In this document: positions 13,959-59,841 of the stretch, piece after piece
Layout: every line of letters starts with the position of its first letter
Position numbering within the stretch: the first letter of the stretch is position 1
Assembly (NCBI GenBank): GCA_016208165.1
Contig: JACQYL010000115.1
Span: 1 to 64,000 of the forward strand
Direction: 5' to 3'
DNA from: Deltaproteobacteria bacterium
Lineage (GTDB): Bacteria > Desulfobacterota > Desulfarculia > JACQYL01
Length of the DNA stretch: 64,000 bases
Notes under the pieces: model-generated
Seen by the model: only the letters and a program-made list of their open reading frames with translations
Told to the model about the DNA's origin: nothing
The model's database searches: none
Program-made: the position numbers and the translations under genes

Positions 13959-14373
13959 ATCTGATAAGTTGGGCTACGCTCGCTGCGTTCGCTAACCCAA
14001 ACCACTCCACTTGACCCCTTTTCGCCTGTCCGTCGATCCCGGACAACAAGTCGTCTGGGCCCACCCTTCATCCCTCCGGGCGAAACTTCCTGACAGGCCG
14101 TTATCCTACAGTGTAGGAAAACCGAACCCCTCCCGTCGTCCTTGTTCCTACACAAAAGTACATTACCAAGCTCATAGGATGTCTTCCCGCTAACTGTTAT
14201 TTTGTATACATGTCCTCCGTTTGGCTTGACGAGCTCCACTTCGTTGAACACGAGCAATTGGAGAAGGCGTCCCACCAACGGAGAGGCGGGACATCGAAGC
14301 AACCTCAAAAGCGTTTACGCATCCGTTGCCGGGCCGACGACCGAAACCGACGACGGATGCTCATAGGACCTAG

Positions 14374-14449
14374 AAAAAGCCAAACCCGTCGCGAGACGGG
14401 GACGGAAAGCCACGGGCCTCTATATACCAGAGACAGCCGGGTTGCCTTA
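14374..14449 (+). ncRNA. GEMM-I riboswitch aptamer (c-di-GMP or cAMP-GMP class)
   Basis: The landmarks of the GEMM-I fold are in order. First comes G-C-C-A-A-A-C-C. Then a 6 bp stem CCCGTC/GACGGG (14385-14390, 14395-14400) is capped by the GNRA tetraloop GCGA. Then follow GGGGACGGAAAGCC, a second stem with the C-A-C-G-G-G-C-C-T receptor side, and the closing AGCCGGGTTGCC. By my alignment to the Vibrio Vc2 aptamer, the base that contacts the ligand at position 20 (G for c-di-GMP, A for cAMP-GMP) is C here. The G-A-C-G-C-A-A-A consensus reads G-A-C-G-G-A-A-A. The element lies about 200 bases before the dockerin cytochrome gene. Confidence 0.82.
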
Positions 14450-14471
14450 AGGGGCATCCCGGTCTTTTTTT
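14437..14471 (+). terminator. Intrinsic terminator overlapping the riboswitch aptamer
   Basis: A stem of about 10 bp with one mismatch (14437-14446 with 14453-14462), then TCTTTTTTT. The left arm is the 3' strand of the aptamer, so the two folds exclude each other. Ligand binding should therefore disrupt the terminator and turn the downstream cytochrome gene on. Confidence 0.78.
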
Positions 14472-32526: not shown

Positions 32527-33540
32527 CTATTTCATTAACAGGAACGCCCGCACGGGAATCTCGATGTCCGGAGTTCGGGGCGCGTTGGTTTTCACCACGA
32601 TCTTCTGTTCCAGCTTGCCCTTGGTCAAGTGCTCCTGATTCAGGGACACGTTCACCAGATATTCCTTTCCGGGCGTCTTGTCTTCCACCTGCACGTCCAG
32701 CACGCTCTTATCGTATTCCACACCAAGGATCTTGAGATCGTTAGCCTCAACGGCCATCAGCTGAACGGATCTTTTCTGAGATCTGGCCTGGTCCTCGTTG
32801 AGGGTGCCGAAGGACACGTTGGGCGGGGTCACCCGGATGGGACCGGAGACCACGACCACCACGGGTATCCGGATGTCGGGTTTGTGGGGATTATTGGTGT
32901 GAAAATAGATGTGGCCTTTGTACGTCCCTTGTTCGGCGTACGAACTGGACACTTCCAGGACGTACGACTTATGGTCCTCGCCCCGGATCAGCCGGGTTTC
33001 AATCTTGTCCTTGATCGCGTCTTCCACCTGAGGAGTGGACAGCTCCAATTCTCCGTCCACCTGGGTTTCGAACCGAACGGCCCTGGTGGATTTCATCCCT
33101 TCCACGTGGGTCAGCCGGATAAAGCTCCATGGGGTTACGGAGATGTACCTTTTTACGCTATACGATGTCAGGAGTTTCAGACTGGGGGTAGTCGGATCGT
33201 TCGAAAGAATGGTTGCCGATTCGGTAACCGGCGCCTGAACGTTGCGCATCTTCACGGAAATGGTGACTGCGCCCGTTTTGCCGGGCGCGATATTGCGGTC
33301 AAACTTGACCGCCACACACCCTCAGGTCGTCTTCACGTGACGTATGACCAGCTCTTCGTCGCCCTGGTTGGTAACCGTGAAGACGCATTCGAGCTGGGCG
33401 TCTTCCCAAACCTGACCGAAATCGTGTTGACGTTTATCCACCGCAATTTTGGGTCCTGTGGATGCATAGGCGACCAATGCCGCGAAAAAGATCAGCAAAC
33501 CCGCGGCCACACCTACTCCACGTTGTCGATGACGCTTCAT
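32527..33540 (-). CDS. Exported DUF1573 protein, probable selenoprotein (Sec73 encoded by TGA)
   Basis: Two open frames, 33540-33325 and 33321-32527, are in the same frame and separated only by TGA at 33324-33322. Read through, they give one 337 aa protein: a membrane or signal segment (residues 10-26), then a DUF1573 domain (H-D-F-G-Q-V near residue 40, V-K-T-T-U-G-C-V-A-V at 69-78, I-A-P-G-K-T-G after it). Two further beta-rich domains of the same kind follow. The TGA stands at the first Cys of the family's conserved C-G-C. A hairpin with an A-G-T-T loop begins nine bases later. A plain nonsense mutation is the alternative. The start at 33540 has GGAG nine bases upstream. It follows a glycosyltransferase gene on the same strand. 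Confidence 0.72.
33295..33321 (-). promoter_or_regulatory. SECIS-like hairpin after the TGA of the DUF1573 gene
   Basis: On the coding strand, GCGGTCA (33312-33306), loop AGTT (33305-33302), TGACCGC (33301-33295): a 7 bp perfect stem. The loop begins 16 bases after the TGA, at the short end of the bacterial SECIS range, and contains G-U. Confidence 0.6.
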
Positions 33541-58554: not shown

Positions 58555-59841
58555 ATGAACGAAATCAATGCTCAGAAGGTCAATGACTTTTTGAAAACCC
58601 GGATTGGGGCGCGTTTCAAGACCTGGTTGAAGATTTGTACTCATTGCGGGATGTGCGCCGACACCTGTCATTTCTATCGCGCCAACGACAAAGATCCTAA
58701 GATGATTCCTTCTTACAAGGTACGATTCTTATTAGATATTTTGAAGAAAAAAGGCAAAGTAGATAAAGAGTACCTGGATAAAGTGTATTCCACAGTATAC
58801 CACGAGTGCAACATGTGTCGACGATGCACTCACTACTGTCCTTTCGGCATCGACATTGCATTGCTGATTTCACTCCTCAGGGCGATGCTGTTCGACCAGA
58901 ACATCGCTCCGGAAGGATTGCGCAAAGCCATCGAGAATTACCGGCAGTTCGGGAACCAGATGGCCGTTACCGATGAAGATTGGGTAGATACCATCCAGTG
59001 GTGCGAGGAGGAAACGGCGGAGGAGCTCGTGGGCCTCACAATCCCCATCGATAAAGTGGGCGCCAAAATGCTGTATACCGTCAACGCACGGGAGCCGATG
59101 TTCTATCCTCAGGATATGATGGAGGCTGCGAAGATCTTCTATGTGGCGGGAGAAGACTACACCTATTCCAGCAAACCCGGCTGGGACGATACGAACCTCG
59201 CCATGTTTTGCGGTGATGTGAAGACGGCGCGCACCATCGTTGAGAACACCTTCAAAAGAGCGGATGAATTGGAGGTGCAGCAAGTCGGGGTTACCGAATG
59301 AGGCCACGCCTACCGAGCGCTTCGGTTCGAAGCGCCTACCTGGCTGGGATACACTCCGAAACAAGAAGTGATTCATTCGGTCGAGCTTTTTCACGACTAT
59401 ATCAAGGAAGGCAGGATTAAGCTCAGGGAGAAAATCAAAGAGCCTACCACGGTCCAAGACCCTTGCAACGTGGTGCGCAGCGGCGGCCTGGCGGCAAAGA
59501 ACCAGGCTCTGGCCGACATGATCTCCGAAGACTTCCGCCCCATGAGAAATCAGGGAAACTACAATTTCTGCTGCGGAGGCGGCGGCGGCGCCATGCCCAT
59601 GGGCGGCGAAATGCGCAAGCACCGTCTGAAATGCGGAAAAGTCAAAGCCGATCAGATCAAGGAGACGGGCGCCAAGGTTGTATTCGTTCCCTGCCACAAC
59701 TGTATCGATCAGATCAGGGACCTTTCAAAAGAATATGATCTGGGCATCAAAGCGATTCACTACAAGGAAGCGATTTCGGAACTCATGGAGATCCCGGAGC
59801 ACATGATTCCGAAAGAAGAAGGGGAAGCAGGGGAGGAATAG
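58555..59841 (+). CDS. tmcB: HdrD/TmcB-like iron-sulfur protein, probable selenoprotein (Sec249 encoded by TGA)
   Basis: Two frames, 58555-59298 and 59302-59841, are in phase and split only by TGA at 59299. Read through: two ferredoxin clusters near residues 28-100 (C-T-H-C-G-M-C-A-D-T-C and C-N-M-C-R-R-C-T-H-Y-C). Then comes the first CCG half with V-T-E-U-G-H-A-Y-R. The second CCG half is complete (Q-D-P-C-N; F-C-C-G-G-G-G-G; V-P-C-H-N-C). In relatives the T-E-C-G-H-A position is Cys. A 7 bp hairpin with a G-G-T-T-C loop follows 15 bases after the TGA. The total is 428 aa, normal for the family. Alternatively a nonsense mutation, but the reading frame and conservation continue intact. Confidence 0.85.
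59302..59335 (+). promoter_or_regulatory. SECIS-like hairpin after the TGA of the HdrD-like gene
   Basis: GCGCTTC (59317-59323), loop GGTTC (59324-59328), GAAGCGC (59329-59335): a perfect 7 bp stem. The loop starts 22 bases after the TGA and begins G-G-U, like the E. coli fdhF SECIS. Confidence 0.75.

Follow-up and report, generated by a model that had tools for sequence, protein, structure and literature searches.

A three-domain DUF1573 gene with an in-frame TGA as a further member of the OS_HP2 selenoprotein family in Desulfobacterota

The DUF1573 gene and the stem-loop downstream of its TGA

The window analysed here is a stretch of 64,000 nucleotides from a draft genome of a Deltaproteobacteria bacterium (contig JACQYL010000115.1). 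On its minus strand, a gene of the DUF1573 family forms a single frame of 337 codons, the sole interruption of which is a TGA at codon 73 (Table 1). The peptide around this codon reads ...RHVKTT-TGA-GCVAVKFDR..., so that the TGA occupies the place of the first Cys of the C-G-C motif. The Pfam DUF1573 match covered residues 33-119 and spanned the TGA (E 3.8e-23; 81.8 bits, against a PF07610 gathering cut-off of 26.1). Homology was unbroken on both flanks of the TGA, and the frame 3' of it ran on through 264 conserved codons without any further stop. By direct reading, the gene starts with an ATG, has an AAAGGAG ribosome-binding site and encodes a signal peptide ahead of the TGA, while two more Ig-like domains are encoded downstream. 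The AlphaFold model (pLDDT 93.8) comprised three Ig-like domains, with the U-G-C motif in the first of them, in the turn that links strand 64-71 to strand 76-80. A preliminary description had seen in-phase frames separated by one TGA, located at the first Cys of C-G-C with conservation on either side, and had taken the product to be exported. The frame, the domain match and the alignment bore out the former points, and the signal peptide read from the sequence supports the latter; export of the product is, in our judgement, nearly certain.

The gene stands alone, with a glycosyltransferase gene on one side and a convergent PIG-L deacetylase gene on the other. Elsewhere in the window, a c-di-GMP-I-GGC riboswitch was detected at 14370-14450 on the plus strand (75.5 bits).

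Table 1. Coordinates of the features described in the window
Feature	Position	Strand	Remarks
DUF1573 selenoprotein gene, three Ig-like (HYDIN/ASH-type) domains	32527..33540	-	337 aa, TGA read as Sec (predicted)
N-terminal signal peptide, ~residues 1-24 of MKRHRQRGVGVAAGLLIFFAALVAYAS	33469..33540	-	direct reading; DSSP helix 3-24 in the predicted model
TGA codon 73, first position of U-G-C	33322..33324	-	TGA or TGC/TGT in the same column of relatives
SECIS-like stem-loop	33283..33321	-	downstream of UGA; z -4.36 (dinucleotide shuffles), z -3.4 (synonymous recoding)
HmcF/TmcB-like Fe-S oxidoreductase gene	58555..59841	+	in-frame TGA 59299-59301, TE-U-GH-AY, codon 249

Bacterial SECIS elements are stem-loops placed just 3' of the UGA, with the loop about 16-37 nt away and a G among the first two loop bases. 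At this locus, a 7-bp upper stem (GCGGUCA-AGUU-UGACCGC, 33312-33295) begins 9 nt past the UGA, and its AGUU loop (33305-33302) lies 16 nt from the UGA and carries G as the second base. The preliminary description had reported this perfect hairpin, which folding, shuffling and recoding all upheld; a second 7-bp stem lying under the first (33321-33315 paired with 33289-33283) was absent from it. The RNA from the UGA onward folded with -24 kcal/mol, and none of 200 shuffles was equally stable. Among 150 synonymous recodings encoding the same peptide, none gave an equally stable local hairpin, showing that the protein sequence does not by itself account for the stem (z-scores in Table 1). The hairpin is thus more than a chance structure and is selected beyond the protein sequence. 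An Rfam search at gathering thresholds found no SECIS match, as was expected since bacterial SECIS elements vary. Across the family, hairpins near the UGA were stronger in the Sec members than in the Cys members (mean z -1.54 versus -0.17 by synonymous recoding; Mann-Whitney p 1.5e-5, a statistic that ignores relatedness of the sequences), and the Cys-form genes as a group were unenriched for the hairpin.

Exchange of TGA and Cys codons, and family membership

Alignment with 30 relatives placed the TGA of the window gene in the column of the first Cys of C-G-C. A single-sequence scan of the genome contigs with P0001 found no relatives, and the alignment scan returned Cys forms only, because its pattern was built on Cys codons. 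When 395 genomes of the phylum were surveyed with the NCBIfam model NF041425, 161 gave matches, many of them containing exactly one TGA. In the fetched loci, with the window gene and its paralogue counted, the motif column held 60 TGA and 119 Cys codons; one row (L193), the sequence of which also reads UGC, failed automatic alignment and was left out of this count. The TGA in this column was always followed by G, and neither TAA nor TAG occurred there among the sampled relatives. Bacterial selenoprotein genes are recognised by an in-frame UGA in a column where homologues have Cys, and this pattern is therefore present at this site. TGA/TGC exchange among homologues, proposed as a check in the preliminary description, was found, and the random stops in relatives that it had named as contrary evidence did not appear, Cys being the sole alternative.

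The genome itself carries a DUF1573 paralogue on another contig, 41% identical to the window protein, with a TGA at the equivalent codon and an equally placed hairpin. A maximum-likelihood tree required at least 12 switches between Cys and Sec, 6 of which were forced by well-supported branches, and Cys and Sec copies were mixed in some families, even inside one genome. Tandem DUF1573 copies were observed at G094:C37:14970-16208 and G432:C20:23479-24737; in the former, one copy has the TGA and its neighbour has none, forming a natural Sec/Cys pair.

The OS_HP2 selenoprotein family was reportedly described by Zhang and Gladyshev in 2007. It was tabulated in 2008 as OS_HP2, pfam07610, with the motif UxC (PMC2398784), and again as 'DUF1573 domain-containing protein', pfam07610, UGC, in 2022 (PMC9312934) and 2026 (PMC13188914), both of which attribute the DUF1573 selenoprotein to a 2007 study of Olavius algarvensis symbionts. 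NCBIfam provides a model for it, NF041425 OS_HP2_seleno. The window gene shares with this family the Pfam domain, Sec as the first residue of UGC and the Desulfobacterota-type host. The preliminary description had proposed a candidate new selenoprotein; its Sec reading is supported, but the family was already published. The window gene thus adds a further, poorly annotated member to the already known DUF1573/OS_HP2 selenoprotein family and is not a discovery.

The only point that is new, and modestly so, is a gap in annotation. The window protein scored 97 bits against NF041425 and its paralogue 96.6, both under the curated cut-off of 100. By hand count, 42 TGA-bearing DUF1573 places in the phylum lay above this cut-off and at least 38, the paralogue included, below it; the latter genes are therefore probably missed or called truncated. 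The model has 98 positions, whereas the window protein adds two Ig-like domains and reaches 337 aa, compared to about 140-260 aa for many of the OS_HP2 members above the cut-off. Long three-domain DUF1573 proteins of the Cys form in Desulfarculaceae and Acidobacteriota are similar in length and layout (about 23-31% identity) and have C-G-C in the same column, with TGC or TGT where the window gene has TGA. It is conceivable, though doubtful, that the three-Ig-domain branch, both copies included, is a separate selenoprotein subfamily with a function of its own that the OS_HP2 model misses, and that a sizeable Desulfobacterota set is annotated as truncated.

Selenocysteine machinery of the host and the decoding of the UGA

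FlpD/MvhD is a known selenoprotein family, and 5 of its 11 copies in the host genome contained a single TGA. The preliminary description had called for a search for selA, selB, selC and selD. The tRNA-Sec (77 bits; called tRNA-SeC by ARAGORN), a full-length selB and selD were intact, but selA was internally deleted in the assembly. This gene (contig C48, ~84608-85842) lacks about 45 internal residues, corresponding to ~60-107 of a relative's SelA and including the NATGxxxHTNLGR stretch, and is frameshifted there. Beyond the break, identity was 60% over 361 aa, and the N-terminal piece was recognisable. Since both pieces are recognisable and the remaining Sec system is intact, the gap is most likely a local assembly error; it could also be a real recent loss, in which case Sec synthesis would fail in the host strain.

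A further TGA of this type had been reported in the window, and it is present on the plus strand, in the HmcF/TmcB-like gene (Table 1). Orthologues of the same class read TE-C-GHA(F/Y) at this site, and 3' of the UGA lies an 8-bp stem with a GUU loop, the stem 15 nt and the loop 23 nt from the UGA. An 'Fe-S oxidoreductase-like protein' with the motif UGH is an already published selenoprotein (PMC13188914). This gene is thus of a known selenoprotein kind and belongs to a system separate from DUF1573, and it supports the use of Sec by this genome. Other candidates for TGA read-through in the window (28289, 17064 and 28505 on the minus strand and 31362 on the plus strand, among others) fell within ordinary genes or in the gaps separating them, and were rejected.

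In a comparison of 76 genomes, selA was present in 52 of the 53 with a TGA form. The exception, G321, gave no selA match but has selB, and a gap is therefore likely. In all six other genomes without selA, selB was also below the cut-off, and only the Cys form occurred among the matches listed (Fisher p 0.003). Both DUF1573 copies of G092, which has neither selA nor selB, carry Cys, and each of the other genomes of its family (f39) placed on the tree has at least one TGA copy.

Three readings in which codon 73 is not translated as Sec were weighed against these data. A pseudogene or truncated gene, in which the TGA would be a plain stop codon or the result of a sequencing error, might be suggested by the draft state of the assembly (142 contigs) and by the internally deleted selA in it, but we consider it highly improbable, as the TGA column is shared by two paralogues and dozens of relatives with Cys as the only sampled alternative, the downstream frame is open and conserved, and the hairpin is under selection of its own. 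A somewhat less remote, still very unlikely, case is that the Sec genes of the host strain are relics, selA being truly broken and the UGA terminating translation in both the DUF1573 gene and its paralogue. The missing, frameshifted segment of selA is what this reading would predict; against it, selA is well preserved beyond the break and recognisable before it, selB, selD and tRNA-Sec are intact, as are several TGA-bearing genes, none of them with a further stop, and a local misassembly or a very recent change is the simpler account. Restart at the GTG at 33315, leaving Sec unused and giving a C-terminal protein of 262 aa, corresponds to an open reading frame that exists mechanically (32527-33315), yet its product would lack the signal peptide along with roughly half of the first Ig domain, direct reading showed no evident ribosome-binding site at the GTG, and homology is continuous upstream of it; this reading is hardly credible. 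Judged from comparative genomics, the UGA at codon 73 is almost certainly decoded as Sec, presumably by SelB with Sec-tRNA(Sec) guided by the stem-loop just downstream.

Possible role of the Sec-Gly-Cys motif

Taken as a whole, the reading of the window gene as a genuine three-Ig-domain DUF1573/OS_HP2 selenoprotein, with the UGA decoded and the product exported, likely as a periplasmic redox site, appears very likely. The signal peptide would direct export, and the Sec-Gly-Cys would most likely form a reversible selenenylsulfide/dithiol pair, by which the UGC site may act as a periplasmic thiol-disulfide redox site, whether as a reductase, an isomerase or an electron relay. In an alignment of 40 sequences, the two motif Cys were the sole invariant residues among possible catalytic or metal ligands, and no further invariant Cys or His was found in it. 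CGC peptides are redox active, with a potential of -167 mV (PMC2672033). By sequence profile and fold, the closest solved relatives were the uncharacterised P. gingivalis protein 2qsv and Ig domains of the HYDIN type from the ciliary central pair; with these, the window protein has the fold alone in common, at low identity, and no function was transferred.

The gene neighbourhoods examined revealed no common functional partner, the neighbours being unconserved among members, and no function is therefore claimed from context. The paralogue (L223, G000:C119:10500-21000) lies downstream of, and on the same strand as, a molybdopterin oxidoreductase/4Fe-4S/NrfD gene set, from which a terminator-like palindrome separates it. 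Other DUF1573 members have S41 peptidase and polysaccharide deacetylase genes, or DsbA-like genes, in their vicinity.

Gly-spaced Cys-x-Cys motifs are common ligand sites for soft metals. The main rival to a redox function is that UGC/CGC is a periplasmic binding site for copper, mercury or zinc, Sec serving as a soft ligand with no redox cycling. The suggestion in a review (PMC13188914) that Sec may coordinate a metal in certain other selenoproteins, as well as the lack of a conserved redox partner beside the gene in the contexts examined, would agree with such a role. The same contexts, however, did not identify metal transport or resistance neighbours, and the two motif Cys are unaccompanied by any extra invariant Cys or His. 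We consider metal binding rather unlikely, and a redox function of Sec-Gly-Cys somewhat probable; the best inference is a thiol-disulfide redox site in the periplasm that Sec strengthens.

The main value of these data is corrective, as the curated NF041425 model misses about half of the TGA-bearing places seen, and annotation pipelines therefore probably cut such proteins at the Sec codon. With its repeated Cys/Sec switches and mixed families, DUF1573 offers a natural experiment on the retention of Sec in an exported Ig-like protein.
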